In this document: positions 494 to 18,035 of the stretch, one piece after another
How the letters are laid out: each line of letters begins with the position of its first letter
Numbering within the stretch: position 1 is the stretch's first letter
DNA from: Parapedobacter pyrenivorans
Lineage (GTDB): Bacteria; Bacteroidota; Bacteroidia; Sphingobacteriales; Sphingobacteriaceae
DNA length: 64,000 bases
Assembly (NCBI RefSeq): GCF_014636865.1
Contig: NZ_BMER01000001.1
Span: 2,716,718-2,780,717, forward strand
Direction: 5' to 3'
Translations under genes and position numbers: made by a program
The notes under the pieces: generated by a model
Told to the model about the DNA's origin: nothing
The model's input: the letters and a program-made list of their open reading frames with translations, nothing else
The model's database searches: none

Positions 494-1198
494 ATGGCAA
501 GCAAGAATTTAAGTAGGGACATCGAGAAAATAGCACCCTCTACCATGGCGGACGTGGTGGAACTGCGTTTAAGGGAATATCTGAAAAGAAAGGCTTTCAA
601 GCCGGGCGACGCCCTGCCAAAAGAATTGGAGCTGGCGGAAGCATTGGACGTGAGTCGCAATGTGCTGCGTGAGGCACTCAGCCGTTTGCGTATGTTGGGG
701 ATGATTGAATCGAGGAAGAAGCGAGGGATGATATTAGCGGAGCCGGACATCCTCGGCGGGTTCGAACGGGTAATGGATCCACTGATATTGGATGTGAAGA
801 CGCTTCAGGATCTGTTTGAGCTGCGTCTTGTGCTCGAAATGGGTTTGGCCGACATCTTATTTGCTCGGATGACCGATAAGGACTTGAAAGAATTGGAGCA
901 GATCGTTAACAAAGAGGTGAATAAAGTACAGAAGCCCTTCAAGGTAAAACATGAAATCGCGTTCCATGGCAAGCTCTACCAAATGACCGGTAACGATACG
1001 TTCAGGCGGTTCCAGAATATGCTGCTGCCCGTATTTGAATATGTGGTCAGTGAGGAAGCAAAAATCAATGGCCAGGCAAAGGTAGGTAAGGTGACCCATC
1101 GGGATTTGCTTGATTTGCTTAAAAAAGGCAATCCTGACGATTTCCGGCAAGGCATGAAGGAACATTTGAGCCCGCATTTTGAACGCATACGGAAATAG
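494..1198 (+). CDS. GntR family (FadR-type) transcriptional regulator, probable sialic-acid locus repressor
   Basis: This 234-residue protein has the two-domain layout of FadR-type GntR regulators. A winged helix spans about residues 15-85, with recognition region LAEALDVSRNVLREALSRLR and wing SRKKRGMIL. An FCD ligand-binding helical domain spans about 100-230. Histidines in HEIAFHGKLY and the HRDLL and KEHL segments fit the metal/ligand pocket of the FCD family. It sits immediately upstream of, and co-directional with, the sialic-acid operon, 135 bases before susC. NanR of E. coli belongs to the same family and responds to Neu5Ac, so a Neu5Ac-responsive repressor is the best guess. The effector is not proven by sequence. 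Confidence 0.85.
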   Translation: MASKNLSRDIEKIAPSTMADVVELRLREYLKRKAFKPGDALPKELELAEALDVSRNVLREALSRLRMLGMIESRKKRGMILAEPDILGGFERVMDPLILDVKTLQDLFELRLVLEMGLADILFARMTDKDLKELEQIVNKEVNKVQKPFKVKHEIAFHGKLYQMTGNDTFRRFQNMLLPVFEYVVSEEAKINGQAKVGKVTHRDLLDLLKKGNPDDFRQGMKEHLSPHFERIRK

Positions 1199-1333: not shown

Positions 1334-4300
1334 ATGAGGTTAGCTTTATTGATTCTTATTCTCCCTTGTTGGATATTCTTTCCGATCCAAGGGGTCAATG
1401 CACAAAACAGATCGGTTTCCGGAACGGTCACTTCTTCGGCTGGAGAGCCCGTGCAGGGAGTTACGGTCTCCCTGAGGGGGGCAACCGCTAAGGCCACGAC
1501 GGATGACGCCGGTAGTTATCGGATCGATTTACCTGTTGCTGGTCAGTCACTTACTTTTTCGGCAGTAGGTTTCGAAACACAGGAATTAGCCATTCCGACG
1601 TCAAACGTGCTTAACGTCGTACTTGACGAGGCACAGACTAACTTGGATGAAGTCGTTGTCGTGGGATACGGCACGCAGTCCCGCCGCACGGTCACCTCGG
1701 CCATTACGAAAGTAGGGGGCGAGGTATTGCAGGATATTCCAATCAGTACCGTGGGCGAGGGATTGAAAGGCAAGGTAGCCGGTGCACGGGTTTATTCATC
1801 AAACAATACGCCAGGAGCAGACGCGGTCTTCCGGATCCGTGGCGGCTCATCCATCAACAAGTCCAATGATCCGTTGGTACTGGTGGATGGTGTGGAACGG
1901 GCATTTTCGGGAATCAATCCCAATGACGTGGAGTCCATTGAGGTACTTAAAGACGCCGCATCCACAGCGATATACGGCTCGCGTGCATCCAATGGTGTGG
2001 TACTTATTACCACGAAGAAGGGATCCGCAGCCAGCTCACCTCGCATTACCTTTGATGTGGACCTAGCTCATCAATCGCCTGAGACGCTGATTGATTTTAT
2101 GGATGCCCGAGACTATATCAATACCGTAAGACCCGCCGTGGCATTGAGCCCGAATGCGCAATATAACAGTGCCTCCGGCTATTCCGCAAGTTCAGGAAAT
2201 GACGAAAATTCCCTTTATTCTACGCGGTATCTGCGTGACGGAGAATCCGTTCCGGCAGGTTATGGATCGATGCCCGATCCGCTTGATCCGAGCAGAACGC
2301 TGATTTACCAAGACAACGATTACCAGTCGCTGATGTATCGGAACGTGTTATGGCAGAACTATTATCTTGGCGTAGATGGAGGTAATGAGTTTATTCGCTA
2401 TGCTGCCAGTGGCGGGTTTACCGACGACGGCGGCGTGGCGCTCGGTACTGGCTATTCACGCTACAGCGGACGGGCAAAAGCCGATGTAAAGATTTCGGAG
2501 CGGCTCTCATTAAACACAGCTTTTGATTTTTCCAGCACACGCTCCAGCGAATTCGAGAACCAGATGAACGTCATCGCACGTGGACTGGCTACGCCGGCAA
2601 CGCAAAAAGTATATTATGCGGATGGTCGGCCTACCCCGGGTTACAATGCATCGTCTCCCAATCCCGTATGGTGGGATTATACCCGTGATATCGCAAATAA
2701 GGATAAGAGGCTTTCTTTAATCGGTGGGTTGGATTACCGGATACTGGATCAGCTGAAAGCCAATGTCCAGATTTCGAACTATAATCACGTAACCCAATAT
2801 GATTATTTTGAAAAAGCACACGAATTCAGTGGGTTACGAACGACCAAAGCTAGCTTCGGCGAGCTTGACCGGACGAAGCTGGACGCGTATCTTTCATACG
2901 ATCAAAGTTTTGGTAGTGCTCATTCGGTATCCGGAATGGCAGGCTACTCCTATCAAGTGACAGACAATAAGGCGTTTTCGGCGAGCGCAACAGGGGCTAG
3001 CTCCGACAAGGTGCCCACCCTGACCGCGGGGCCCAACAAAACCGGGGCCGACAGCAAGTTTGAAAAAGAAGTCTTGATCGGTTATTTTGGCCGATTATCG
3101 TATGACTATCAGAAAAAATACCTGTTGATGGCAACTTTCCGTTACGATGGCTCATCCCTATTTGCTGAAGAAAACCGCTGGGGTTTCTTTCCCGGTATCT
3201 CCGGCGGTTGGGTAGTCTCCGAAGAAAACTTTATGCGTAACAGTGCCGTCGTCAATTACCTTAAAGTACGGGCGAGCTATGGACAGACCGGTAACAATTC
3301 GATTGGGTTATATGACGCATTGGGTAGGTATGCCACTGATGCCAGGTACAACAGCAATGCTGGAATCGTTCCAGCAACTATGCCCAATAGGGATCTTACC
3401 TGGGAAACATCGACGCAGCTGGATGCTGGATTTGATTTTAGTATTGTCAACAACCGGATTTCTGTCAGCGCTGATTATTTCAATAAAATTACCGAAGATT
3501 TACTGTTCAGTATGGAATTGCCAAATACCACCGGATTCAGCAATGTGCAGACTAATATCGGTAAGGTTAAATTCCATGGATACGATCTGGAACTTTCTTC
3601 CCGAAACATCACCGGCGGTGACTTTTCATGGGATTCCAAGTTGACTTGGAGTTTTGTCAAAAATAAGGTGCTCGAACTGCCTGACAATGGCAGGGACCGC
3701 AATCGCATAGGCGGCATAACCTTGGCAGACGGTACTGCTTTTGGAGGGACCGCCGAAGGGGAGCCGTTATACCGGTATTATGGTTATACGGTAGATCACA
3801 TTCTTCAAAATGCAGAACAGGCTGCCAATGCCCGGTACGATGAAAGCGCTAGGGGGTGGGATCCAGCAGACGGGCAAAGCATCCGCGGGCGCAAGGTCGC
3901 GGGGGATTATGAGTGGATGGACCGAGATGGCGACGGACGGGTTACAAGCCGTGACCAGTTTGAACTCGGAGTAACCGTTCCGCACACGACCGGTGGATTA
4001 AACAACGCGTTTTCGTACAAGAATTTCAGCCTGAATATCTTCGTTGACTGGGCACTGGGTCATTCCATTAATCACAATGCGTATATGCGGTATTTCATGA
4101 ATACGTTTGCTAACAACTACACATTGGTGGATGAAGTGAAAAAAGCATGGACCGGCGAGGGCGATGATACGAAGTATGCTAGGTTTACGGCCAACGATCC
4201 AGATGTAGGCAACTCCAATTTTTCCAGAACCTCGGATGTGTTTAACTATAAAGGCGACTATCTGTGTATACGGGAAGTTACACTCCAATACCGCGTACCT

Positions 4301-4492
4301 GAAAAGTTCATCGGCAGACTGGGCTTAAAGGATTTGGCGCTGACGGTTTCGGGGAATAACCTGCACTATTTTTCTGCCGTGCAAGGGATGGGGATTTCGC
4401 CGGAAGTAGGGGCTTCCACTACCTATAATGCCTCTTATTATAACTACCCTCCGATTCGCAGATTTTCTTTCGGAGCCAAAATCACGTTATAA
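1334..4492 (+). CDS. SusC/RagA family TonB-linked outer-membrane transporter
   Basis: This 1052-residue outer-membrane protein imports oligosaccharides in a TonB-dependent way together with the SusD lipoprotein that follows. A signal peptide ends near VNAQ at residue 24. A carboxypeptidase-regulatory-like domain follows (about 27-105), then the plug domain with VVVGYGTQSRRTVTSAI and the conserved DVESIEVLKDAASTAIYGSR signature near residues 197-215. The rest is the beta-barrel, ending in an aromatic-rich last strand (RRFSFGAKITL). Length and layout are normal for SusC. It is the first gene of the sialic-acid operon and is 13 bases from susD. The substrate (sialylated glycan or sialic acid) is inferred from neighbours. 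Confidence 0.96.
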   Translation: MRLALLILILPCWIFFPIQGVNAQNRSVSGTVTSSAGEPVQGVTVSLRGATAKATTDDAGSYRIDLPVAGQSLTFSAVGFETQELAIPTSNVLNVVLDEAQTNLDEVVVVGYGTQSRRTVTSAITKVGGEVLQDIPISTVGEGLKGKVAGARVYSSNNTPGADAVFRIRGGSSINKSNDPLVLVDGVERAFSGINPNDVESIEVLKDAASTAIYGSRASNGVVLITTKKGSAASSPRITFDVDLAHQSPETLIDFMDARDYINTVRPAVALSPNAQYNSASGYSASSGNDENSLYSTRYLRDGESVPAGYGSMPDPLDPSRTLIYQDNDYQSLMYRNVLWQNYYLGVDGGNEFIRYAASGGFTDDGGVALGTGYSRYSGRAKADVKISERLSLNTAFDFSSTRSSEFENQMNVIARGLATPATQKVYYADGRPTPGYNASSPNPVWWDYTRDIANKDKRLSLIGGLDYRILDQLKANVQISNYNHVTQYDYFEKAHEFSGLRTTKASFGELDRTKLDAYLSYDQSFGSAHSVSGMAGYSYQVTDNKAFSASATGASSDKVPTLTAGPNKTGADSKFEKEVLIGYFGRLSYDYQKKYLLMATFRYDGSSLFAEENRWGFFPGISGGWVVSEENFMRNSAVVNYLKVRASYGQTGNNSIGLYDALGRYATDARYNSNAGIVPATMPNRDLTWETSTQLDAGFDFSIVNNRISVSADYFNKITEDLLFSMELPNTTGFSNVQTNIGKVKFHGYDLELSSRNITGGDFSWDSKLTWSFVKNKVLELPDNGRDRNRIGGITLADGTAFGGTAEGEPLYRYYGYTVDHILQNAEQAANARYDESARGWDPADGQSIRGRKVAGDYEWMDRDGDGRVTSRDQFELGVTVPHTTGGLNNAFSYKNFSLNIFVDWALGHSINHNAYMRYFMNTFANNYTLVDEVKKAWTGEGDDTKYARFTANDPDVGNSNFSRTSDVFNYKGDYLCIREVTLQYRVPEKFIGRLGLKDLALTVSGNNLHYFSAVQGMGISPEVGASTTYNASYYNYPPIRRFSFGAKITL

Positions 4493-5960: not shown

Positions 5961-5989
5961 TAACCGTATAAAAGACGATCTTAGTGCTT

Positions 5990-7156
5990 ATGATAAAATT
6001 GAATAGGTTATCGAAATGCGGGCTGGCAATACTGATTTTCATTGCCCTGTTAATGGGGAGGTTGTCAGCGCACCAATTACCGGTTTATTCAGACAGTACT
6101 TCTATTGCTGTGTTCGATCCGGCTATCCATCCCTATTCTTCACTCCGAATCCCCGCATTGGTGGTTTCCAAGCGGGGAACGCTCCTCGCGTTTGCTGCAG
6201 GTAGGATAGATAGCGGAAGTGATTGGGCAGACATGGACCTCGTGATGCGAAGGAGTGAAGACGGCGGCAGTACTTGGCAACCCTTGCAGGTCGTAGCCAA
6301 ACGGGAAGGACATACACCCACGGATAATCCGACTCCTATTGTGGGGCAGGACGGAACGATTCACTTGCTATATCAACGGGATTATGCACGGGCTTATCAC
6401 ATTCAATCGGTAGATGATGGAAAGACTTGGAGCAATCCAACAGACATCACGTACGCTTTTGATGCCTTCCAGGATGAATATCCCTGGAAAGTGCTCGCCC
6501 CGGGACCTGGCCATAGTATTCAATTGCAGAGCGGCCGATTGGTGGTACCCGTTTGGTTGGCAGCGTCGGATGTCGTAACACCGCATCGGAGCCATCGACC
6601 TTCGCGTATCGCTACGATCTACAGCGACGATGGTGGAGCAACCTGGAAACGAGGCGCGTTGGTTCCCGATGTGCCAGGATTCAAGAACCCGAGCGAAACG
6701 ATGGCTGTGGAATTGGTGGATGGCCGCGTCATGTTGAATATACGTAATGAGTCTGAACGCCGGAGAAGAGGGGTAAGCTATAGCAATGACGGGATTTCGG
6801 GATGGACGCCCCCTACTTATGTCGAAGGTCTGTTCGAACCGATCTGCATGGGAAGCATTCTGCGTGTGGACAATCCAGGCGGTGAGCCGGGACTGTTGTT
6901 TGTTAACCCCGATAGCGAATCAATACCCAAACACCCACGTGCCAACCTAACCGTGAAATGGAGTGCCGACGGTGGCAAGACCTGGCCCACTGCCCAAGTA
7001 TTGGAGCGTGGTGTGGCTGGATATGCAGACTTGGCTATAGGACCGGATGGGACGGGGTATTGCTTATATGAAACCAGGCAAGCCGACTCAAAGAAAGGGC
7101 TGTCTATCCACCTCATACGGTTTGATATACCGTCGCTCCAGGGGCAAGGAAAATAG
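5990..7156 (+). CDS. Exo-alpha-sialidase (GH33, BNR/Asp-box repeats)
   Basis: A 388-residue secreted sialidase that releases terminal sialic acid. The ATG at 5990 is preferred to an in-frame GTG at 5984 because it gives a clean signal peptide (hydrophobic LAILIFIALLMG). The arginine-binding RIP motif is at R53 (SLRIPAL). Several Asp boxes (SxDxGxTW) are visible: SEDGGSTW, SVDDGKTW, SDDGGATW and SADGGKTW, as expected for a six-bladed propeller. The SETMAVEL..NIRNES segment carries the catalytic Glu and a triad Arg, and GYADLA..CLYE fits the tyrosine/glutamate end of the site. It is shorter than the second sialidase at 8700 and lacks its N-terminal domain. It lies 29 bases after susD in the same operon. 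Confidence 0.9.
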   Translation: MIKLNRLSKCGLAILIFIALLMGRLSAHQLPVYSDSTSIAVFDPAIHPYSSLRIPALVVSKRGTLLAFAAGRIDSGSDWADMDLVMRRSEDGGSTWQPLQVVAKREGHTPTDNPTPIVGQDGTIHLLYQRDYARAYHIQSVDDGKTWSNPTDITYAFDAFQDEYPWKVLAPGPGHSIQLQSGRLVVPVWLAASDVVTPHRSHRPSRIATIYSDDGGATWKRGALVPDVPGFKNPSETMAVELVDGRVMLNIRNESERRRRGVSYSNDGISGWTPPTYVEGLFEPICMGSILRVDNPGGEPGLLFVNPDSESIPKHPRANLTVKWSADGGKTWPTAQVLERGVAGYADLAIGPDGTGYCLYETRQADSKKGLSIHLIRFDIPSLQGQGK

Positions 7157-7178
7157 TACGGTTTTGAAAGGTATACTT

Positions 7179-8684
7179 ATGGGCGCAGGGATTAATAGAT
7201 TCGTATTGTTATTTGTGTTGGCATTACCGCCGAGCGGAATTGTCATGGGACAGATGCGAGGGAACGTGGTGGGCAACGATTCTTCAAGGCCAAATGTATT
7301 GTTTATTGCGGTAGACGACCTGCGTCCGCAATTGGGATGCTACGGCGACAAGGTTGCCATTACGCCAAATATCGACAGGTTGGCAAAAATGGGTGTCGTT
7401 TTCAATCGAGCTTATTGCCAACAGGCGGTGTGTGCCCCTTCTCGAGCGTCGGTCATGACGGGCCGAAGGCCAGATGAGACCAAGGTGTGGGACTTGAAAG
7501 CGCATTTCAGGACGGCCTTGCCCGATGTGGTAACCTTACCCCAGTATTTCAAGCAACATGGATACGACACCCGAAATGTCGGTAAGATTTACCACGATCC
7601 AAAAAATGCACAGGACCCGATTTCGTGGTCGGCACCGGAAATCATGGCTGTCACGGATGTAGCTGGCCCCAAATACATACTGACCGAAAACTTACCGACC
7701 GAAGGGTCATGGAAGGCAGCGGCAACAGAGTGTGTGGATGTGCCTGATAGCGCTTACGTAGACGGAAAAGTGGGCGATGCAGCAGTTCACCTCCTTAGCG
7801 AATTGAAGGACACTACGTTTTTTCTCGCTGTGGGATTCCGGAGGCCACACCTACCGTTTACGGCGCCCAAGCGATATTGGGACCTGTATGAAGCGGATAA
7901 CATCCCGTGGCCCGCTCACGACCGTGCTCCGGAAAATGTACCGGCGATTGCCTTGCACAATAGTGTGGAATTGCGCGGATATAGCGACATTCCGGATATC
8001 GGACCGCTATCCCCGCAGAAAATCCGCGAATTGCGTCATGGGTATTACGCCAGCGTGAGCTATATCGACCATCAAATTGGCCGATTGATAGATGAGTTGG
8101 AACGGCAAGGCCTGTTAGCGAATACGGTGATTGTTTTGTGGAGCGACCATGGGTTCCATTTGGGCGAGCTGGATCTTTGGTCAAAAACGACGAATTTCGA
8201 GCTGGATACGCGTGTGCCGCTAATTGTCGCCTCGCCGTTATTGCATTATCAGCATGTCCATACCGATGCGCTGGTCGAATTGGTCGATATCTATCCCACC
8301 TTGGCGGACCTTGTAGGCTTGCCTATTCCCCCGGGTTTAGCAGGAACCAGCATGGCACCATTGATGGAAAACCCTGATCGTGCCTGGAAAAAGGCGGTGT
8401 TCAGTCAATTTCCGCGCCCTTGGATGTATAAAGATAAACCCGAGGTGATGGGCTACTCGGTGAGAACGGCGGACTATCGCTATACGGAATGGATAGCAAC
8501 CAACGATAAGTCGATCAAAGCGGCAGAGCTATATTACTATAAAGATGGTGTCGAAACAGCGAATCTAGTTAATCAGGCAGCGTTCAGTGAAAAGCAAGCG
8601 GTAATGAAACGACTGCTACATGATGGATGGAGAAACGCACGTCCGGAAAATACAGGGAGACCAGACCTTTCGGTAAAAAACTAA
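7179..8684 (+). CDS. Type I sulfatase (iduronate-2-sulfatase/choline-sulfatase-like)
   Basis: A 501-residue formylglycine-dependent sulfatase. The start at 7179 is chosen because it follows the sialidase stop by 22 bases and begins a signal peptide (FVLLFVLALPPSG). The open frame itself runs further back into the sialidase gene. Metal-binding Asp residues are in AVDDLRP (46-47). The formylglycine-type motif CAPSRASVMTG has its Cys at residue 85. The SDHGFHLGELDLWSK block is the usual distal active-site segment. The family acts on sulfated glycans in the periplasm or at the surface. Placement between two sialidases suggests that the target sialoglycan (for example mucin) is sulfated. The exact sulfate ester cannot be told. 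Confidence 0.92.
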   Translation: MGAGINRFVLLFVLALPPSGIVMGQMRGNVVGNDSSRPNVLFIAVDDLRPQLGCYGDKVAITPNIDRLAKMGVVFNRAYCQQAVCAPSRASVMTGRRPDETKVWDLKAHFRTALPDVVTLPQYFKQHGYDTRNVGKIYHDPKNAQDPISWSAPEIMAVTDVAGPKYILTENLPTEGSWKAAATECVDVPDSAYVDGKVGDAAVHLLSELKDTTFFLAVGFRRPHLPFTAPKRYWDLYEADNIPWPAHDRAPENVPAIALHNSVELRGYSDIPDIGPLSPQKIRELRHGYYASVSYIDHQIGRLIDELERQGLLANTVIVLWSDHGFHLGELDLWSKTTNFELDTRVPLIVASPLLHYQHVHTDALVELVDIYPTLADLVGLPIPPGLAGTSMAPLMENPDRAWKKAVFSQFPRPWMYKDKPEVMGYSVRTADYRYTEWIATNDKSIKAAELYYYKDGVETANLVNQAAFSEKQAVMKRLLHDGWRNARPENTGRPDLSVKN

Positions 8685-8699
8685 GACTTAATTTTTTTA

Positions 8700-10391
8700 A
8701 TGATGACCATGTTAGAAGACCAGCTATTCAAACGAATTATTCCCATGCTAAGCCTGCTAATGGCTGCGTTGACGTTACACGCCATCCAACCCGATAAGGT
8801 CACTGTTGAGCAGCAGCAATATCAGTTACCGGTTTTAGTACAAAAAAAGCATAACCCCGTATTGCGGCTGAAAGTAACCGTGCCTGAGGGTGAGCATCCA
8901 GTGGTATTGCAATCCTTGATTGTGGACTTGGAAGGTACAACTGACATAAGCGATATCGATGCAATTGACATCTTTTATTTAGGAAGTGATTCTGTATTCA
9001 ATGGACTATCAGGTGCCAAAACGGTGTCGTTCGGTACCACAAACAAGGTCCGTTTGACAACAACCATAAAAGGAGAAAAGGCGTTGGCGCCAGGCGACCA
9101 TTTTCTTTGGGTATGTTATACCCTCAAAGACGATGCGGCTATCCTTGGCAGGATTGGAAGCGCTTGTAAAAGTATGTCATTTAGCTATGCAGCAGTTGCA
9201 CCAGTTCGTAGGGGTAACCCCGTAAAGCAGCGTATCGGCATGGCATTGAGGCAACATGGACAAGACGGGGTGCATACCTCTCGGATACCGGGGTTGGCCA
9301 CCACGAATAAGGGTACATTGCTCGCAATCTTCGATGCACGTTATGAAAGCGCTCGTGACCTGCAAGGGCATATGGATATCGGTTTGCACCGCAGTACGGA
9401 TGGCGGGCAGACATGGGAGCCGCTGCAGATCGCGATGGATATGGGTGAGTGGGGTGGCCTGCCGCAGAAATTCAACGGCGTGTCCGATGCCTGTATATTG
9501 GTAGACCGAAATTCCGGTGCCATTTATATTGCTGGTTTATGGATGTATGGTGTAATCGATGACAGCGGTAAATGGGTGGAAGGTTTGGCGGATACGAGCA
9601 CTGTATGGAACCATCAATGGCGCAACAAAGGATCGCAGCCCGGTTTCGGTGTAAAACAAACTTCTCAGTTTCTGGTGGTGAAAAGCACCGATGACGGCAA
9701 AACTTGGGGAGAACCGATAAACCTGACAGCGCGGTGCAAAAATGAGGAATGGTGGCTTTGGGCCCCGGCGCCAGGAAATGGAATTACCATGGAAGATGGT
9801 ACGCTGGTTTTTCCCACGCAGGGGCGCGATGCATCGGGTAAGCCGTTTTCCAACATTACCTATAGCAGCGATGGAGGCGAGACTTGGAAGACCAGTAATC
9901 CCGCATTGGACGTGCCCGGTGGAACCACGGAGTGTGCGGTGGTGCAGCTTGCTGACGGCGCATTGATGCTGAACATGCGGGCAAATAGCAACCGGGGTAA
10001 CGAAGGAGTTGATAATGGACGTGCAATTGCCATCACCAGCGATATGGGTGCCACCTGGCAAGAACACCCTACGTCTTTTCGGGCGTTGCCGGAACCGACG
10101 TGTATGGCGAGTCTATATATCCACGGGGATATGGCCGACGGTGCAGGTAATCGGGCCATGTTTTTCCTAAACCCCAATTCGAAAACGGCACGCGATCACA
10201 TCACGTTGAAGGTAAGCCTTGATGAAGGCAATAGCTGGCCAGCGGAACACTGGCTTTTACTGGACGAATGGAGGGGTAGGGGGTATTCGTGTATAACCAG
10301 TGTAGACAGTGAACACATCGGCGTGCTGTACGAGAGCAGTCAGGCAGATATGGTTTTTCAGAAAATCAGTATCGAAGAATTAATGCAATGA
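8700..10391 (+). CDS. Exo-alpha-sialidase with N-terminal beta-sandwich domain (GH33)
   Basis: A 563-residue sialidase. After a signal peptide (about residues 1-28) comes a domain of about 135 residues, resembling the N-terminal carbohydrate-binding-like domain of Bacteroides sialidases. The catalytic propeller follows, with the RIP motif at R195 (HTSRIPGLA). Asp boxes STDGGQTW, STDDGKTW and SSDGGETW are visible. GTTECAVVQL..MLNMRANS supplies the catalytic Glu and a triad Arg, and the YSCITSV..IGVLYESS end is typical of bacterial neuraminidases. It is distinct from the sialidase at 5990. Its stop overlaps the next start by four bases (ATGA), implying translational coupling to the O-acetylesterase. 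Confidence 0.94.
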   Translation: MMTMLEDQLFKRIIPMLSLLMAALTLHAIQPDKVTVEQQQYQLPVLVQKKHNPVLRLKVTVPEGEHPVVLQSLIVDLEGTTDISDIDAIDIFYLGSDSVFNGLSGAKTVSFGTTNKVRLTTTIKGEKALAPGDHFLWVCYTLKDDAAILGRIGSACKSMSFSYAAVAPVRRGNPVKQRIGMALRQHGQDGVHTSRIPGLATTNKGTLLAIFDARYESARDLQGHMDIGLHRSTDGGQTWEPLQIAMDMGEWGGLPQKFNGVSDACILVDRNSGAIYIAGLWMYGVIDDSGKWVEGLADTSTVWNHQWRNKGSQPGFGVKQTSQFLVVKSTDDGKTWGEPINLTARCKNEEWWLWAPAPGNGITMEDGTLVFPTQGRDASGKPFSNITYSSDGGETWKTSNPALDVPGGTTECAVVQLADGALMLNMRANSNRGNEGVDNGRAIAITSDMGATWQEHPTSFRALPEPTCMASLYIHGDMADGAGNRAMFFLNPNSKTARDHITLKVSLDEGNSWPAEHWLLLDEWRGRGYSCITSVDSEHIGVLYESSQADMVFQKISIEELMQ

Positions 10392-11803
10392 AAGGTTGTA
10401 AGCTGTTCATAATCTTTAGAGAAGCCATCTTCCTCTTATTGGCCAATCTATTTTTCGGCGAAACCTATGCCGATATCACGTTGCCCACATTATTCAGCGA
10501 CGGGATGGTATTGCAGCAACAAGCAAATGTGCCGATTTGGGGAACTTCAGACGGCACAGCCGTAAGTGTGACTACCTCCTGGAACGGAAAAAAATATCAT
10601 GCCGAAGTGGATGATGAGGGTGCTTGGCGATTAATGGTCAAAACACCGAAAGCCGGAGGGCCTTATGAAATTTGTTTGAATGACGGGAACGAAAAGATAT
10701 TGAAGAATATATTGATCGGGGAGGTGTGGATCGCTTCCGGCCAGTCTAATATGGGAATGCGGGTTGGGAATTCACCCAAAGACACGGTTTTGCATGCAAG
10801 CGAACTTATTGCAGAGGCCGGCAATCCGCTCATCCGCCTTTTTCGGGTGCCGGTAAAGCAATCGACTCAGCCCTTAGACGACTGCGACGCGGCATGGATG
10901 GCGCCTGATTCTGCAGCAGTATCGGCATTCAGTGCGGTTGCCTACCAATTTGCGCTTCGTTTGCAACACGAGCTTAAGGTGCCCATTGGTATCGTGCAGG
11001 CTGCCTATGGTGGCACCCAGGTGCAAGCATGGATGGACTCAACCACCCTGAATACCTTTCCGGAATTGGCTGGCAGGCCGGCGCCGGAAAAGATTAGCAA
11101 AAATACACCCACCGTATTATTCAATGCGATGATCCATCCCATTTTGGGGTATGGTATCAAAGGTGCTATCTGGTACCAAGGAGAAGGAAACCGCGCTACA
11201 GCCGATCGCTATACAGACTGGTTTGCGGGGATGGTGCGGGGCTGGCGGCAACGATGGGGACAGGATGATTTCCCTTTTTATTATGTACAGATTGCGCCAT
11301 TTAAATACGACGGGAAACACGAGTCCGCATACCTCCGTGAATCCCAACTGGATGCGGCCGATCGGATTCCCAATGCCGGGATGACTGTAACCATAGATGT
11401 TGGCTCCGAAAGCACCATCCATCCACCGGATAAAACAACCGTTGCCAACAGGCTTTCAAATGTTGCTTTGGCTGAAACTTACGGCAGGGAACGGGGGGAG
11501 GTTTATGGTCCGAAGCTAAAGCGTACAAAAATGAGTGGAACGGTTGTTCGCCTGTATTTTGACCATGTAGCCGATGGACTGGTCGATTCCGGACGGGGCT
11601 TACAATGCTTTGAAATTGCGGGTGAAAATCAGGTTTTTTATCCGGCTGAAGCTCGTATCGCTTCGAAAGACGAAATTGTGGTTACCTGTCCGCAGGTCGT
11701 CAAACCCGTAAGCGTCCGCTATGCATTTAAAGATTGGGTAGTCGGCGATTTATATAACTCTGCGGGATTGCCCGCGTCATCGTTTAGGACCGATGATTGG
11801 TAA
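10388..11803 (+). CDS. Sialate O-acetylesterase (SGNH-type)
   Basis: A 471-residue secreted esterase that removes O-acetyl groups from sialic acids, making them accessible to sialidases and the lyase. It has a signal peptide (residues 1-28) and a beta-sandwich lead-in (TLFSDGMVLQQQANVPIWG, usual for this family). Block I is GQSNM with nucleophile S120. AAYGGTQVQAWMD and IWYQGEGN follow. The catalytic His is in the STIHPPDK segment near residue 345. The Asp that often precedes this His is replaced by Thr here, so the site may work as a Ser-His dyad. Translation is coupled to the upstream sialidase by a 4-base overlap. Confidence 0.92.
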   Translation: MKGCKLFIIFREAIFLLLANLFFGETYADITLPTLFSDGMVLQQQANVPIWGTSDGTAVSVTTSWNGKKYHAEVDDEGAWRLMVKTPKAGGPYEICLNDGNEKILKNILIGEVWIASGQSNMGMRVGNSPKDTVLHASELIAEAGNPLIRLFRVPVKQSTQPLDDCDAAWMAPDSAAVSAFSAVAYQFALRLQHELKVPIGIVQAAYGGTQVQAWMDSTTLNTFPELAGRPAPEKISKNTPTVLFNAMIHPILGYGIKGAIWYQGEGNRATADRYTDWFAGMVRGWRQRWGQDDFPFYYVQIAPFKYDGKHESAYLRESQLDAADRIPNAGMTVTIDVGSESTIHPPDKTTVANRLSNVALAETYGRERGEVYGPKLKRTKMSGTVVRLYFDHVADGLVDSGRGLQCFEIAGENQVFYPAEARIASKDEIVVTCPQVVKPVSVRYAFKDWVVGDLYNSAGLPASSFRTDDW

Positions 11804-11828: not shown

Positions 11829-12761
11829 ATGGTAAAAATAAATGGGCTTATAGCAGCTACATTTGCGACATTTCATGCAGACGGCTCGCTCAACCTTGGT
11901 GGTATTCCCCCCTTGGTTGAAAAGTTGATAGAAGATGGTTTAAAAGGGGTATTTATCTGTGGAACAAACGGCGAGGGGCCAAACCTGACGGTAGAGGAGC
12001 GTATGGCAGTGGCAGAGGCGTATGTTGCAACGGCAAAAGGTAGGTTGTTTGTATTCGTTCATGTCGGGCATACATCCATTGCGGAGTGCCGTAAGCTGGC
12101 GGCCCACGCGGAGAAAATCGGAGCAGATGCGATATCGGCAGTAGCCGCGTTTTATTTCAAGCCCACTAACGTGGCAAACTTAGTGGATAGCATGGTGCAA
12201 ATAGCCACCGCGGCCCCAAAAACACCATTTTACTATTATCACATCCCTGCATTAACCGGCGTCGGAATGGATATGGTAGAATTTCTCCGTATCGGTGAAG
12301 AAAAAATAGCGAATTTGGCGGGTATCAAATATACGGCGGCCACCATCCATGAATATCAAGCGTGCTTGAATTTTAAAGGTGGTAAATTTGATGTGTTGTT
12401 TGGTTATGACGAATTGCTGCTGCCCGCGTTGGCCGTAGGTGCCAAAGGTGCAGTGGGGAGTACCTATAATTTTGCCGCTCCATTATATTTGCGTGTCATG
12501 GAACTTTTTGAGGCTGGACATCTGCATGAAGCACAGCAATTGCAACTGCTGCTCGTCAGTATGATCCGCGAGATGGTTAAGTTTTCGCCGATTCCCGCAC
12601 AGAAGGCAATCATGGAAATGATTGGGATGGACCTGGGCCCCTCACGCTTACCGTTGATGTCGTTATCACAACATGATAAAGAACTATTGCAAACGCGGCT
12701 GGAAGCTATTGGGTTTTTTGATACCCTTAAGCAGATTAAGCCGGTGAACGATCGTGTATGA
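11829..12761 (+). CDS. nanA: N-acetylneuraminate lyase
   Basis: A 310-residue cytoplasmic class I aldolase of the DHDPS/NAL family. It cleaves Neu5Ac to ManNAc and pyruvate. The GTNGEG phosphate/carboxylate loop is near residue 41. The catalytic tyrosine lies in the NAL-type YYYHIPALTG motif, and the Schiff-base lysine is K167 in AGIKYT. The YHIP and GIKYT signatures separate it from true dihydrodipicolinate synthases, which usually have YNxP. There is no signal peptide. It lies in the sialic-acid operon, 25 bases after the esterase, and its end overlaps the start of the mutarotase gene by 8 bases. Confidence 0.94.
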   Translation: MVKINGLIAATFATFHADGSLNLGGIPPLVEKLIEDGLKGVFICGTNGEGPNLTVEERMAVAEAYVATAKGRLFVFVHVGHTSIAECRKLAAHAEKIGADAISAVAAFYFKPTNVANLVDSMVQIATAAPKTPFYYYHIPALTGVGMDMVEFLRIGEEKIANLAGIKYTAATIHEYQACLNFKGGKFDVLFGYDELLLPALAVGAKGAVGSTYNFAAPLYLRVMELFEAGHLHEAQQLQLLLVSMIREMVKFSPIPAQKAIMEMIGMDLGPSRLPLMSLSQHDKELLQTRLEAIGFFDTLKQIKPVNDRV

Positions 12762-13908
12762 ATCATGTATTGCACAAAAAAATAGCCGGATATTTGTGAT
12801 GGCGTTGACGATAGGACAGGGTTGCCAACCCTCAGAACTGGTGCATACCACTTGGGAACAAGCCATGCAAGTGCCGGATTCCGTTGGATTTGCAGGTGCC
12901 TACGCCGGGGTCAGCAACGGACACCTACTCGTAGCCGGCGGTGCGAACTTCCCGGCAGGGACCCGACCTTGGTCGGGTGGTGTAAAAAAATGGAATGATA
13001 AGGTATTTGTGTTGGCTGAGCAGGATGGGGGGTGGAAGGAAGTTGGCCGCTTACCCCGTCCAATGGGATATGGCGTATCGCTGACGTGGCAGGATCAGGT
13101 AATTATTTTAGGAGGCGCCGATCAGTCAATCCACTATCAGGATGCCTATTTACTGCGTTTTGAAGAAGGAAAATTGATCACCGATCGGCTGCCCGATTTG
13201 CCGGCACCAAATGCCAATGCCTGTGGGGCCTTGGTAGATGGTGTAATTTATGTCGCCGGTGGGCTTGCCCACCCGGCTGATACGACCGCTACGCATTCTT
13301 TTTGGTCGCTGGATCTGAAAATTCCCCACACGGAAAGAAAATGGGAAATACTGCAGGGATGGCCTGGTTTATCCCGGATGTTAGGTGTTGCAGGCGTCAT
13401 TGGTGATGCATTTTACCTGATGAGCGGGGTTGCATTGCGGGTACCGGAGGGCGATTCGCTGGCCCGCCGTACCTATTTGACCGACGCTTATCGCTACGCG
13501 ACCGGAAGTGGTTGGCAGCGTATCGCGGACTTGCCGCATGCCGTGGCAGCCGCGCCGACCCCCGCTTATCCTACGGATACAGGTAGGCTACTGGTGTTCG
13601 GCGGTGACGACGGAATCCTTGGCGATCAAGCGGTAGCACTTCGCGACCGCCATCCCGGATTCCGGCACGACATACTGTCGTATGACGCCGGTTCAGATTC
13701 ATGGAACGAGGTAGGGGAAGTATTAACTGATAGACAAGCCGATCCAGAGAACAACCCCAATGCCAGTACCTGGGCTCCAGTGACGACGCCGTTGGTGGTT
13801 TGGAAGGGTCAAGTGGTTCTTCCGATGGGGGAGGTGCGCCCTGGTGTTCGGACGAACCGGGTCCTTATAGGCATAGTAGAAGTTGAATCAATGCCTTTAA
13901 CATCGTAG
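12754..13908 (+). CDS. nanM: Cyclically permuted N-acetylneuraminate mutarotase (NanM-like Kelch protein)
   Basis: A 384-residue Kelch beta-propeller that should speed interconversion of alpha- and beta-Neu5Ac in the periplasm. The N-terminal block (VGFAGAYAGVSNGHLLVAGGANFPAG, then MGYGVSLTW..VIILGGAD) corresponds to the C-terminal part of E. coli NanM/YjhT, while the C-terminal half corresponds to its beginning. The protein is therefore a circular permutant of the classical enzyme. Start at 12754 overlaps nanA by 8 bases. The first residues include a short hydrophobic stretch ending LTIGQGC, which could be a lipobox, so it may be a lipoprotein. An ATG at 12799 is an alternative start but would remove that signal. 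A second copy of this domain is fused to the transporter at 14896. Confidence 0.88.
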   Translation: MYESCIAQKNSRIFVMALTIGQGCQPSELVHTTWEQAMQVPDSVGFAGAYAGVSNGHLLVAGGANFPAGTRPWSGGVKKWNDKVFVLAEQDGGWKEVGRLPRPMGYGVSLTWQDQVIILGGADQSIHYQDAYLLRFEEGKLITDRLPDLPAPNANACGALVDGVIYVAGGLAHPADTTATHSFWSLDLKIPHTERKWEILQGWPGLSRMLGVAGVIGDAFYLMSGVALRVPEGDSLARRTYLTDAYRYATGSGWQRIADLPHAVAAAPTPAYPTDTGRLLVFGGDDGILGDQAVALRDRHPGFRHDILSYDAGSDSWNEVGEVLTDRQADPENNPNASTWAPVTTPLVVWKGQVVLPMGEVRPGVRTNRVLIGIVEVESMPLTS

Positions 13909-13912
13909 CTAA

Positions 13913-14848
13913 ATGGCACCTCTTACCATGGATAAGTTAAAAGGCAACTGGGCAACCCTATTGCTGTCGCTCACCCCTTCAGCAGCGATTGACTGGGACC
14001 TGTTGGCCCATGAAGTCGACTACCTGATCGGAGCCGGGGTGGATGGTATCTACTCAAACGGTACGGCTGGCGAATTTTATAACCTCGAGGAAGAAGAAAT
14101 ACGCAGGGTCAATGAAATACTGGCTCAGAAATGCCAGGTAGTCGGCATGCCCTACCAGATCGGGGCCAGCGACACCAATCCCACGGTTTCGCTCAGGCGC
14201 ATCGAGAACCTGAAACACCTGCTTCCGTCGGCCTTCCAGGTGATCCTACCCGACTGGGTGGCTCCTACCGCCGACGAACAGGTCGCATTCTTAACGCGAA
14301 TCGCTGAGCAAGCCGCACCTGCCCCGTTGGTGCTCTATAACCCCCCGCACGCCAAGCGATTGCTAACGCCGCCAGCGCTTGATCGCTTGGCTGATTTGGT
14401 TCCGGCATTAATCGGGATCAAGGTAGCCGGTGGCGATCGGTCATGGTACGTAGCGATGAAACCCCTGGCCGATAAACTGGCGATTTTTGTTCCCGGCCAT
14501 CACCTGGCTACCGGTATGGCTGCGGGGGTCGCCGCGGGCGCTTATTCGAACGTAGCCTGCTTGAGTCCGTTGGGTGCACAACGTTGGTATACGATGATGT
14601 TGTCGGATATGAACGAGGCATTGGCGATTGAGCAGCTGTTGTTGGGTTTTTTCAACAAAGCTATCGATCCGCTGAAAGAGGCCGGATATTCGAACCCGGC
14701 TTTGGATAAGTTTTTGGCTGCTGTTGGCGGTTGGTGCCCCATTAGTACCATGGTCAGGTGGCCCTACAGCTCCGTTCCGGAGGCGGCCCTAAGCCAGGCC
14801 CGAAAGGATGCCAGGAAGATGCTGCCAAGTTTTTTTTTCGAGCATTGA
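13913..14848 (+). CDS. DHDPS/NAL-family aldolase, second paralogue in the sialic-acid operon
   Basis: A 311-residue cytoplasmic TIM-barrel lyase. Family marks are GTAGEF near residue 50, LYNPPH containing the catalytic Tyr, and Schiff-base lysine K170 in IGIKVAGGD. It differs from the nanA product two genes upstream in the tyrosine motif (YNPP instead of YHIP) and in the loop (GTAGE instead of GTNGE). It therefore need not act on Neu5Ac. Possible roles are lysis of another nonulosonic acid or a modified sialic acid, or a related keto-acid aldol. It is four bases after nanM and clearly in the operon. The substrate cannot be assigned from sequence. Confidence 0.85.
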   Translation: MAPLTMDKLKGNWATLLLSLTPSAAIDWDLLAHEVDYLIGAGVDGIYSNGTAGEFYNLEEEEIRRVNEILAQKCQVVGMPYQIGASDTNPTVSLRRIENLKHLLPSAFQVILPDWVAPTADEQVAFLTRIAEQAAPAPLVLYNPPHAKRLLTPPALDRLADLVPALIGIKVAGGDRSWYVAMKPLADKLAIFVPGHHLATGMAAGVAAGAYSNVACLSPLGAQRWYTMMLSDMNEALAIEQLLLGFFNKAIDPLKEAGYSNPALDKFLAAVGGWCPISTMVRWPYSSVPEAALSQARKDARKMLPSFFFEH

Positions 14849-14895: not shown

Positions 14896-17499
14896 ATGAT
14901 GATAAAGAGATACGATAAGAGCATAGGTAGGTTTCTTGGCAGATGGGCGCAGGTCGTCGGCGTGATCGCGGTGATGGTTACAGGGCTGCAGGTCAGCCGC
15001 GCGGCCCATGACCATCCGCAATACCTCCAATGGCAGCAGCTTCCGGCACTGCCGGATAAGGTAGGGTTTGCTGGCTCGTTCGCCGGGGTGTCTAATGGCG
15101 CCCTACTGGTTGGTGGGGGTGCCAATTTCCCCGCGGGCCAAACGCCTTGGAACGGCGGGGCGAAACGGTGGTACGCGGACCTTTTTGCACTCGAACAGCC
15201 TGATGGGGAGTGGAAGCGCGTGGGACAGCTACCCCGTAATCTGGGATATGGCGTATCGGCCTCCTGGCGCGACGGCATGGTATGCGTAGGGGGAAGCAAC
15301 GCCGAAGGACATTCGGCGGTCGCATTTATCGTTCGGTATCAGCAGGGGCAAATTGCCATTGAAGAGTTGCCTTCGTTACCGGAGCCCTTGGCCAATACCA
15401 GCGGTGCGCTGGTGGGCGATGTATTGTACATTGCCGGGGGGATACCTGCACCCGATGCGAAATCGGCCTCCAATGGGTGTTGGTCGATCGACTTAGCCGA
15501 ATCGCCCGATAACCGCCATTGGCGGCAGGAAGCGCCCATTCCCGGTCCGGGGCGTATGTTGAGCGTAGCCGGCGTGCAGAACGGTGCGTTCTATGTGTTC
15601 AGTGGGGTGGCACTGGAAGACGGACAGCGCAGTTACCTTACTGATGCTTACCGGCTGGACGGGTTGGAATGGACACGCCTGAGCGATCTACCTGCCCCGG
15701 TGGCAGCGGCGCCTACGCCGGCTTATGCGGCGGGACAGGCCACGTTGTTGGTGTTTGGGGGAGACGACGGCACTTTGGCGCCCGGGGCGGCTACCTTGCA
15801 ATCCCGCCATCCGGGGTTTTCGGATCAGGTGTGGAGCTATAACGTGGTTACCGATGTCTGGGCAGCGAGGGAATCCATGCCGGTGGACAAAAAGCCGGAT
15901 GCCATTGAAAACCCTAATGGAAGTACCTGGCCCGTTGTAACGACCACTTCGGCCAACTGGAATGGGTATTTCGTCATTCCAGGAGGGGAAGTACGGCCTG
16001 CCACGCGCACACCGCGGGTGCTTGCCATGCAGCCTGTGCAACAGAAAGGCGTATTTCTAGCACTTGATTGGCTAGTGGTGATTGCGTACTTCCTGCTGAC
16101 TATTGCCATTAGTGTTGTGGTGTCAAGGAAGATGAGTGGTACCACCTCAGAGTTTTTTCTGGGGGGAAGTAAGATTCCCTGGTGGGCGGCAGGCTTGAGT
16201 ATATTTGGAACAACCTTGAGTGCTCTTACCTTTATCGCAGTACCGGCAAAGGCATATGCAACAAACTGGACATACCTCGTAAACAATTTGATGATCGTAG
16301 TGGTGGCTCCGTTTATTGTATATCTGTATTTACCTTATTTCCGCAAGCTTAAAATTGTCAGTGTATATGAATACCTGGAGATCCGTTTTTCACGCTCGGT
16401 AAAGCTCCTGGCCAGTGCTGTGTTTCTCGTTTTCCAGATCAGCCGATTGGGTGTGGTCATATACCTGCCTGCGTTGGTAGTAAGTTCGCTGATGGGTGTT
16501 GATCTGGTGTATTGTATCGCGATTACAAGTTTAGTGACGACCGTCTATTGTTTTCTGGGAGGGATTGAAGCTGTAGTTTGGACGGACGTGATGCAAGTAA
16601 TTGTACTGCTTGGCGGGGCGATGGCCGCCTTGTTTTACGTTGCTTTTTCCCTAGATGGCGGGTTCATCCAACTTTTTAGTGAAGCATCGGAAGGTCATAA
16701 ACTGGTATTGGCAGACTTGGGGAATAGCATAGCTGAGCCTGTACTGTGGGTAATGATTGTTGGTGGTTTTTTCGGTCAGTTGGTTACTTACTCATCGGAC
16801 CAAGTCGTGGTGCAGCGTTACCTCACGACAGCTACTGAGCAAAAGGCCCGCAAATCTATATATACCAACGCATTGCTTACCATACCAGCTTCTATTATAT
16901 TCTTCGGGGTCGGTTCGGCACTATGGGTATATTTCAGACATAACCCCGGGGCAATCGACCCACATGGTCGGATTGACGACGTGTTTCCTTGGTTCATCGC
17001 GCACGAGCTACCATCCGGTGTTTCCGGACTCGTGATTGCTGGTGTTTTTGCCGCGACGATGTCTACAATTAGCTCAAGTATGAACTCGATGGCTACAGTC
17101 ATTACCACTGATTTTTACAAAATCTTGAAGCCGGGAGGGCAGGACAAGGAACAGTTTCGGTTTGCCAGATGGACAACTGTTGCACTTGGTATCATTGGTT
17201 GTGTCGTTTCAATTTATATAGCTTCACTAAATAATACATCGATATGGGATCAATATATCGCCATTATTGGACTGTTGGGTGGTTGTTTGGGCGGCATATT
17301 TATGGCTGGGATATTGACAAAGCATATACACGCCCGGGCAGTACTCTCCGGTTTTATCGCCAGTGTTACCTTGCTGTTTTTTATTAAACAGGTTACTTCC
17401 ATTCATTTATTGCTTTATGCTGCCGTTGGTGTATTAGGTTGTTTCGCGCTGAGTTGGCTCGCCAGCTTAATAATCCCCGATAAAGCGAAGTATAAGTAA
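14896..17499 (+). CDS. Fusion: permuted sialic-acid mutarotase + sodium/solute symporter
   Basis: An 867-residue two-part membrane protein. Residues about 18-35 form a signal/anchor helix. Residues about 38-375 form a cyclically permuted NanM-type Kelch propeller (VGFAGSFAGVSNGALLVGGGANFPAG, close to the protein at 12754). From about residue 385 a sodium:solute symporter (SSS) domain follows, with repeated hydrophobic helices and the typical SEFFLGGSKIPWWAAGLSIFGT entry and MSTISSSMNSMATV segment. SSS proteins usually have a periplasmic N-terminus, which would place the mutarotase outside the inner membrane at the transporter mouth. Expected function: convert alpha-Neu5Ac to the beta anomer and import it with Na+. 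It is the last gene of the operon, 47 bases after the aldolase. Confidence 0.9.
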   Translation: MMIKRYDKSIGRFLGRWAQVVGVIAVMVTGLQVSRAAHDHPQYLQWQQLPALPDKVGFAGSFAGVSNGALLVGGGANFPAGQTPWNGGAKRWYADLFALEQPDGEWKRVGQLPRNLGYGVSASWRDGMVCVGGSNAEGHSAVAFIVRYQQGQIAIEELPSLPEPLANTSGALVGDVLYIAGGIPAPDAKSASNGCWSIDLAESPDNRHWRQEAPIPGPGRMLSVAGVQNGAFYVFSGVALEDGQRSYLTDAYRLDGLEWTRLSDLPAPVAAAPTPAYAAGQATLLVFGGDDGTLAPGAATLQSRHPGFSDQVWSYNVVTDVWAARESMPVDKKPDAIENPNGSTWPVVTTTSANWNGYFVIPGGEVRPATRTPRVLAMQPVQQKGVFLALDWLVVIAYFLLTIAISVVVSRKMSGTTSEFFLGGSKIPWWAAGLSIFGTTLSALTFIAVPAKAYATNWTYLVNNLMIVVVAPFIVYLYLPYFRKLKIVSVYEYLEIRFSRSVKLLASAVFLVFQISRLGVVIYLPALVVSSLMGVDLVYCIAITSLVTTVYCFLGGIEAVVWTDVMQVIVLLGGAMAALFYVAFSLDGGFIQLFSEASEGHKLVLADLGNSIAEPVLWVMIVGGFFGQLVTYSSDQVVVQRYLTTATEQKARKSIYTNALLTIPASIIFFGVGSALWVYFRHNPGAIDPHGRIDDVFPWFIAHELPSGVSGLVIAGVFAATMSTISSSMNSMATVITTDFYKILKPGGQDKEQFRFARWTTVALGIIGCVVSIYIASLNNTSIWDQYIAIIGLLGGCLGGIFMAGILTKHIHARAVLSGFIASVTLLFFIKQVTSIHLLLYAAVGVLGCFALSWLASLIIPDKAKYK

Positions 17500-17666: not shown

Positions 17667-18035
17667 TCAATATTCATATCGCTCCACGGAAGCGATTTGG
17701 TTACCTTCTTTCGTAAACACCAATACCGGCTGATAACTGTCGGCTTCCTCCTCGGTAACCTTGAAGAAGCTGAGGATATGTACCGTATCACCCACCTTAG
17801 CATGCAACGCAGCACCACCGTTCATACAGATTTCACCACTGCCGCGCTTTCCAGGCAATACATAGGTCATGATACGGGCGCCGTTTATGGCGTTGTTGAT
17901 GTATACCTGTTCGTACTTTTTGATTTGGGCAGCATCCAATAGATCGGCATCTACCGTAATCGATCCGTTGTATTCGACGTTTGCCTCGGTTACTTTAACA
18001 GTGTGGATTTTTGATTTTAAAATAGTTAACTCCAT
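17667..18035 (-). CDS. panD: Aspartate 1-decarboxylase
   Basis: A 122-residue pyruvoyl enzyme that makes beta-alanine from aspartate for pantothenate and coenzyme A. The self-cleavage site Gly24-Ser25 is in place (VEYNGSITVDADLLDAA), with the N-terminal LKSKIH, the NGARIMTYV segment and GERGSG-like KRGSGEICMNGGAA as in characterised PanD. Length matches the family. No other pan gene is adjacent. It follows the 18068-19117 gene on the same strand by 32 bases and may be co-transcribed with it. It converges on the sialic-acid operon across a gap of 167 bases. Confidence 0.93.
   Translation of the reverse strand: MELTILKSKIHTVKVTEANVEYNGSITVDADLLDAAQIKKYEQVYINNAINGARIMTYVLPGKRGSGEICMNGGAALHAKVGDTVHILSFFKVTEEEADSYQPVLVFTKEGNQIASVERYEY

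Follow-up and report, generated by a model that had tools for sequence, protein, structure and literature searches.

A NanM-type Kelch propeller joined in one frame to a SiaT-type sodium symporter in a sialic-acid gene cluster of Parapedobacter pyrenivorans

Are a mutarotase-like propeller and a sodium symporter encoded as one protein, and what would such a protein do? The question is raised by a gene at positions 14896-17499 (forward strand) of a 64,000-nucleotide stretch of Parapedobacter pyrenivorans DNA (contig NZ_BMER01000001.1, positions 2,716,718 to 2,780,717), here called the window. The initial annotation, made from the letters alone, described the gene as a sialic-acid mutarotase continuing into a Na+/solute symporter, both domains complete. 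We find that it is a real, conserved, and widespread enzyme-transporter fusion within a sialic-acid cluster. Its product is probably an inner-membrane symporter for Na+ and a nonulosonate, most likely N-acetylneuraminic acid (Neu5Ac), which would have a mutarotase of its own attached at the periplasmic face.

A single frame with two complete domains

The gene is a single 867-codon frame running from ATG to stop with no internal stop codons. It matches the Pfam family NANM (PF24996) in two stretches with 112 bits (cut-off 45), and the family SSF (PF00474) with 150.3 bits (cut-off 22.8), the best stretch being residues 420-821. The sodium/solute symporter (SSS) model TIGR00813 is matched with 212.8 bits, against a cut-off of 184. 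An AlphaFold2 model, built from an alignment of 82 fusions, has a mean predicted local distance difference test score (pLDDT) of 92.9 and a predicted template modelling score (pTM) of 0.91. The parts of the gene are as follows.

14896..17499, + strand: fusion gene, 867 amino acids; signal peptide, NanM-type Kelch propeller, and SiaT-type Na+ symporter
14896..15003, + strand: N-terminus resembling a signal peptide, residues 1-36 (basic stretch, hydrophobic core, ...VSRAA), from sequence and hydropathy
15016..16044, + strand: Kelch/NanM propeller (residues 41-383), with a blade order cyclically permuted compared with that of E. coli NanM
15988..15990, + strand: Glu365, equivalent of NanM Glu209
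16006..16008, + strand: Arg371, equivalent of NanM Arg215
16009..16065, + strand: 19-residue link between the catalytic Arg371 and Asp391, where the first membrane helix begins
16060..17475, + strand: SSS/SiaT-type symporter domain, residues 389-860, with 13 hydrophobic segments, predicted N-out/C-in
16444..16446, + strand: Arg517, equivalent of SiaT Arg135 (carboxylate salt bridge)

Within the gene (15004-17475), G+C content falls between the two domains: it is 0.60 over the propeller and 0.46 over the symporter.

Relatives were collected from genome_contigs (84,980 species, each represented by one genome) in a scan that started from an alignment of seven fusions. In all of the best 80 of 564 confirmed relatives, the propeller and the symporter lie in one frame. 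Judged by titles and tree labels, these 80 loci belong to Bacteroidota, Balneolota, Planctomycetota, Verrucomicrobiota, Kiritimatiellota, Acidobacteriota, KSB1, and Hydrogenedentota. Many are Planctomycetota and Verrucomicrobiota loci, for the most part environmental metagenome assemblies, and gut genera among them include Parabacteroides, Phocaeicola, and one genome labelled Akkermansia. The nearest of them, from Parapedobacter tibetensis, is 83% identical. An ortholog, L027 (82-83% identical), is likewise one frame. When its junction (the 36 codons 365-400) is compared with that of the window, 15 codons have changed synonymously and four non-synonymously, which indicates purifying selection at the junction relative to the nearest relative. 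A stop or frameshift between the domains, named in the initial annotation as fatal to its reading, was found neither in the window, nor in L027, nor at the loci of the 80 relatives. At one locus (L075) the fused frame begins inside the propeller (760 amino acids) and a 101-amino-acid propeller piece lies upstream.

The 80 loci are a selected set, the query itself being fused, and an even draw of 395 genomes of the phylum is fairer. Searched with the symporter part alone, and with at most four candidates scored per genome, this draw yielded 22 matches at E<=1e-112, 19 of them in frames of fusion length (846-919 amino acids); the remaining three all belong to one genus. Among the next 59 matches (E above 1e-87), 58 have a normal length (478-547 amino acids) and one lies in a frame of 1079 amino acids (G401:C4:50088-51512). 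Both domains in one frame were confirmed for the window and 17 others of the 19, the last (G161:C1:70437) being counted by length alone. Because 19 of the 22 members of this symporter branch are of fusion length, the fusion marks a symporter subfamily. Among 60 genomes of relatives, a set that includes the genome of the window, a match of some kind is present in 58, and a fusion of full or near full length in seven (G000, G007, G008, G014, G024, G033, and G059). An independent case was found in Gammaproteobacteria, on a Pseudoalteromonas plasmid (L174; NZ_CP133572.1, 538565-558793; the plasmid alone was examined), where the fusion gene lies beside sialidase, nagA, and DHDPS genes.

Two further arrangements were noticed. 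In Flavitalea sp. BT771 (L051:7935-11570), a mutarotase and a symporter share a frame of 1211 amino acids, the only one of that size among the 80 loci, with a BNR sialidase-like domain. After the last symporter helices comes a stretch resembling a signal peptide, which would place the sialidase outside. This could be a true triple fusion or an assembly slip. At L033:4797-7235 (G004), near a DHDPS gene, a symporter of the same superfamily follows a different N-terminal domain that by eye resembles helical repeats, and other periplasmic domains may thus be fused to SSS transporters.

Orientation, binding sites, and the catalytic pair

Residue counts below refer to an alignment of 82 fusions, or to a wider set of 105, made up of the 80 scan loci, eight fusions of relatives, and 17 fusions found in the phylum draw. 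The smaller alignment omits L048, L051, L072, L075, and L086 of the 80 loci, L048 being evidently the same gene as L027, and includes two fusions each from G007 (L026, L027) and G014 (L028, L030).

By sequence, the closest solved structure to symporter residues 390-852 is SiaT of Proteus mirabilis (5nv9, E=3.7e-98), followed by SMCT1 (4.4e-50). Residues 386-867 of the AlphaFold2 model superpose on SiaT (5nva) with a Z-score of 52.8 and a root-mean-square deviation of 1.8 over 470 residues, while the best entry other than SiaT reaches 44.0. The two proteins belong to the same SSS family and are alike in fold, in having 13 helices, and in an N-terminus placed outside. They differ in that SiaT has no enzyme domain, whereas the fusion carries a secreted propeller of ~340 residues before helix 0. 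The roles of the SiaT ligand and ion residues (Ser60, Thr63, Arg135, Gln82, Thr58, and the Na2 and Na3 sites) are taken from excerpts of the SiaT structure paper (PMC5931594). Ser60, Thr63, and Arg135 are kept in the fusion, as are most sodium-site residues. The first two correspond to Ser442 and Thr445, each present in 82/82 fusions, and the third to Arg517, which is Arg in 79 of the 82 and Lys in three. In the Na2 site, the window protein has Ser723 and Thr724 at SiaT positions 342 and 343, and the change of Ser343 to Thr is the sole one over Na2 and Na3; the Ser342 equivalent is found in all 82 fusions. The Na3 site is formed by Thr439, Asp564, Ser726, and Ser727 (SiaT 57, 182, 345, and 346).

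The initial annotation had supposed that the N-terminus lies outside the cytoplasm, and three lines of evidence agree with it. A simple hydropathy-plus-charge rule finds a signal-like N-terminus in 81/82 fusions. Around the 13 hydrophobic segments that follow the propeller of the window protein, Lys and Arg in alternate loops number 24 versus 5, which corresponds to N-outside, C-inside; with helix positions transferred from the window protein, predicted cytoplasmic loops are the richer in these residues in 82/82 fusions (mean 22.9 vs. 5.7). Finally, the N-terminus of SiaT is periplasmic, as stated in an excerpt of its description (PMC5931594). Together, the three place the propeller of the fusion, by prediction, in the periplasm.

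The closest solved structure to the propeller, by sequence, is NanM/YjhT of E. coli (2uvk, E=8e-15), and a superposition of residues 41-383 of the model gives a Z-score of about 31 against Kelch propellers. Both proteins are NANM-family Kelch propellers; NanM is free in the periplasm and has another blade order, while the propeller of the fusion is permuted and tethered to a transporter. Its start aligns to residues 227-350 of 2uvk and the remainder to residues 3-221, two blocks being swapped. The initial annotation had applied the label "permuted" to a free propeller of the same cluster only; that copy is permuted, and the fused one is permuted likewise. 2UVK is absent among the 50 rows of a sequential structure comparison with the propeller, possibly because of the differing blade order, and we do not count its absence as evidence against NANM membership.

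The 2uvk motif GEAKPGLR, containing Glu209 and Arg215 (chain numbering), aligns to GGEVRPATR in the fusion, where the corresponding residues are Glu365 and Arg371. In NanM, Glu209 and Arg215 were reportedly mutated by Severi in 2008 and assigned catalytic roles. A passage of a review (PMC10017367) states that the catalytic site of NanM was mapped by mutagenesis, the residues being unnamed there. Equivalents of both residues are present in 82/82 aligned fusions and in 102/105 of the wider set. As a consequence of the permutation, the pair falls at the end of the propeller, and the spacing between Arg371 and Asp391, with which the first membrane helix begins, is 16-20 residues in 82/82 fusions and exactly 19 in 67 of them.

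Neighbourhood, proposed mechanism, and competing explanations

The genes around fused and unfused symporters were compared using the window proteins as phmmer queries (E<=1e-8) against flanks within about 8 kb. A sialidase neighbour was found at 35/80 fused loci and 0/19 unfused control symporter loci, and a NanA/DHDPS neighbour at 50/80 fused loci and 2/19 controls, the two being weak (34-35 bits). The controls were taken from relatives within the family of the window and form three groups (11, 5, and 3) whose members agree in the residues considered here; the fused loci represent many phyla. Among 50 full-length loci, 37 have NanA/DHDPS and 33 a sialidase; among the 16 loci closest to the window (of the best 80), the numbers are 16 and 15. 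At many loci the lyase gene directly adjoins or overlaps the fusion gene.

These associations, together with the residues described above, are consistent with the following mechanism. The sialidases of the cluster would release alpha-Neu5Ac, the tethered propeller would convert it by equilibration to the beta anomer next to the symporter, the symporter would import the beta anomer, and cytoplasmic NanA would then cleave Neu5Ac. We infer the substrate, the mutarotase activity of the propeller, and the preference of the transporter for the beta anomer. The simplest benefit of the fusion would be that enzyme and transporter are present in a constant 1:1 ratio and that conversion takes place locally, at the membrane. 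In the literature, sialidases are said to release the alpha anomer, spontaneous conversion is described as slow, and NanM is placed upstream of the transporter (PMC10017367), while SiaT is reported to bind the beta anomer (PMC5931594).

Several observations weigh against this reading. At the position of SiaT Gln82 the fusion has Asn464; Asn is found in 64/82 fusions and Gln in 10/82. Asn or Gln at this position occurs in 90/105 fusions and 0/19 controls, the controls being in effect three symporter families. The SiaT residue contacting the anomeric hydroxyl, Thr58, is Thr in the window protein and is conserved in just 2/82 fusions. The Arg135 equivalent is also present in 11 of the 19 unfused controls (L123-L133), none of them near a sialidase or DHDPS gene, and we therefore rejected Arg517 as a diagnostic signature of sialic acid. 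NanA/DHDPS was not seen at 30/80 and sialidase at 45/80 fused loci, 30 of the 80 stretches being shorter than 18 kb. The propeller falls short of the model for cyclically permuted mutarotases, TIGR03548 (117.7 bits, cut-off 243.2); although this is its best NCBIfam match and the blade order is alike, it is not a member by that model. The Glu/Arg pair is lost in 3/105 fusions (L145, L036, L037) and is also absent from the fused propeller of Pseudoalteromonas (L174), which is still recognisable (E=5.9e-17). In two of the three genomes of one genus with unfused members of the fused clade (L166-L168), a search for a NANM match found none. Fusions lacking the pair and these unfused clade members imply that the enzyme is dispensable for the transporter: the propeller can persist without catalytic residues, and the transporter can exist without the propeller. 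Finally, according to part of one study, the lack of NanM costs E. coli at most about 20% of its growth rate (PMC3658417).

We weighed the symporter with its own mutarotase against four other explanations. An artefact, in which two genes were joined through assembly or sequencing error, has a negligible probability; nothing was found in its favour, and it was rejected, since the 80 loci of other genomes (best 80 of 564) are fused in one frame and the junction is under purifying selection. True channelling, suggested in the initial annotation, would require the active site of the propeller to face the symporter vestibule, so that new beta-Neu5Ac is passed on before it diffuses away. It would fit the position of the pair at the end of the propeller, 16-20 residues before the first membrane helix in all 82 fusions, a model that is confident across both domains (pTM 0.91), and the correlation of propeller and symporter distances over 51 fusions (Mantel r 0.51, with none of 2000 permutations as high). 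This correlation, however, is expected from inheritance as one unit, and related fusions lack the pair. A small sugar acid should also cross the periplasm by diffusion quickly compared with the rate of transport, in which case channelling need not help. We regard channelling as doubtful.

The remaining two explanations concern the role of the propeller and the nature of the substrate. That the propeller serves chiefly as a receptor or docking domain (for substrate capture, partner binding, or stability), with catalysis secondary or lost in some lineages, seems to us unlikely. It would account for recognisable propellers without the pair in L145, L036, L037, and L174, for the separate Kelch protein that keeps the pair in the Pseudoalteromonas cluster, for the genomes G267, G008, and G059, in which no NANM match was found beyond the fusion, and for a domain of similar size that precedes the symporter in L029 and in Sphingopyxis (L175), for which a search found no propeller match. 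Against it, the pair is intact in the window protein, in the whole closer alignment, and in 102/105 of the wider set, and the losses depend on one automatic alignment of divergent rows. The notion that a free Kelch protein always compensates for a lost pair was tried and discarded: it is true for Pseudoalteromonas and fails for G267, G008, and G059. In the L174 cluster, a division of labour between the pair-less fused propeller and the separate Kelch protein is possible. The same machine could also handle another substrate, such as ketodeoxynonulosonic acid (Kdn), N-glycolylneuraminic acid (Neu5Gc), or a bacterial nonulosonate, in place of Neu5Ac. The many environmental Planctomycetota and Verrucomicrobiota loci and the Asn at the Gln82 position would agree with this, as does the activity of NanM on Kdn, mentioned in part of one paper (PMC8141875). 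Against it, the window cluster encodes a pair of sialidase-like proteins together with one resembling sialate esterases and a NanA-like lyase, and of the 16 closest loci 15 have a sialidase and all have NanA/DHDPS. We judge it improbable.

The gene cluster, ancestry, and known systems

The initial annotation had also placed a free mutarotase in the same operon as the fusion. Such a copy does lie in the same gene run, a sialic-acid gene cluster with sialidase-like, esterase-like, and NanA-like genes alongside. The cluster genes are on the same strand and closely packed, the fusion gene being the last; the next listed frame, 17667-18035, is on the opposite strand. The genes preceding the fusion are as follows.

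494..1198, + strand: GntR/FCD regulator
1334..4492, + strand: SusC-like outer-membrane protein (named by eye, no family search)
4506-5960, + strand: SusD-like protein (named by eye, no family search)
5984..7156, + strand: BNR sialidase-like protein
7047..8684, + strand: sulfatase, start uncertain
8700..10391, + strand: BNR sialidase-like protein with an N-terminal BNR_assoc_N domain
10388..11803, + strand: sialate O-acetylesterase-like protein (SASA)
11829..12761, + strand: NanA-like N-acetylneuraminate lyase (DHDPS family), scoring 166.7 bits against NF003164, the NanA model, whose cut-off of 281 it does not reach
12754..13908, + strand: free permuted NanM-type propeller, 384 amino acids; GTG start, in-frame ATG at 12799
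13913..14848, + strand: second, divergent DHDPS-family protein

Promoter and terminator scans gave site numbers no higher than in shuffles. Three matches above cut-off to the AGE/GlcNAc 2-epimerase family lie elsewhere in the genome.

The free propeller, two genes upstream of the fusion on the same strand, is 50% identical to the fused one, keeps the Glu/Arg pair, and also scores below the TIGR03548 cut-off (133.9 vs. 243.2 bits). From its presence, the initial annotation had argued that the fused copy is unlikely to be redundant. The argument is weak when taken alone. It gains from the propeller tree, in which the two copies of the window fall in different sub-branches of one clade mixing eight free and eight fused forms, and are thus not a recent duplicate pair. 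It gains as well from the start of the free copy, which by eye is lipoprotein-like (...MALTIGQGC), a feature common to the G005 and G002 relatives. The free and fused propellers may occupy different cell locations.

Propellers and symporters also occur as adjacent unfused genes. A second sialic-acid-like cluster of the same genome (L034, G000:C2:135500-155000), with an adjoining NanA relative, and a locus of G005 (L137) resemble the fused arrangement in that NanA-like, NanM-type, and SSS genes stand together in a SusCD cluster. They differ in that the genes are separate, the symporter comes first, and it belongs to another branch without the Arg135 equivalent. At L034 the frames of the symporter and of a lipoprotein-like propeller overlap by four bases.

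Trees of the symporter and the propeller have many groupings in common. The unfused symporters L166-L168 nest beside the fused L139 and L055 with Shimodaira-Hasegawa-like approximate likelihood ratio (SH-aLRT) supports of 100 and 99, and the propeller seems to have been lost in their genus. At L029:5788-8283 (G014), the symporter is nested with fusions in the tree and its N-terminal domain, which matches no Pfam family, may by eye be a decayed propeller. SiaT was nested inside the fused clade in two quick trees. We do not uphold this as a finding: in a careful tree the approximately unbiased (AU) test gave p 0.33 for a single clade holding all 31 fused rows, that clade was recovered in 14% of 200 bootstrap trees, and the SiaT branch is long. 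A speculative scenario, to which we give little credence, is that the fused form is normal in a large uncharacterised branch of the SSS sialic-acid symporters spanning many phyla, from which stand-alone SiaT would have shed its propeller; the propeller would be a tethered receptor that flips the anomer and feeds the vestibule, and would hence be kept where the pair has decayed.

We found no description of a mutarotase-symporter fusion in the literature, though the founding NanM study (Severi 2008) may mention such fusions. A 2026 study of Parabacteroides merdae reports a "cyclically-permuted mutarotase family protein", a sialidase, and an MFS transporter among genes induced by Neu5Ac, and its available passages mention no fusion (PMC12893687). 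The one annotated record of a recognisable propeller fusion among those we examined, that of Pseudoalteromonas, is labelled simply "sodium/solute symporter". The fusion marks a subfamily of symporters that have an enzyme domain built in and that occur in gut genera as well as in environmental bacteria. It also allows an old and hard question, whether the mutarotase serves the transporter and whether the anomer carried is the beta form, to be put to the test on a single polypeptide.

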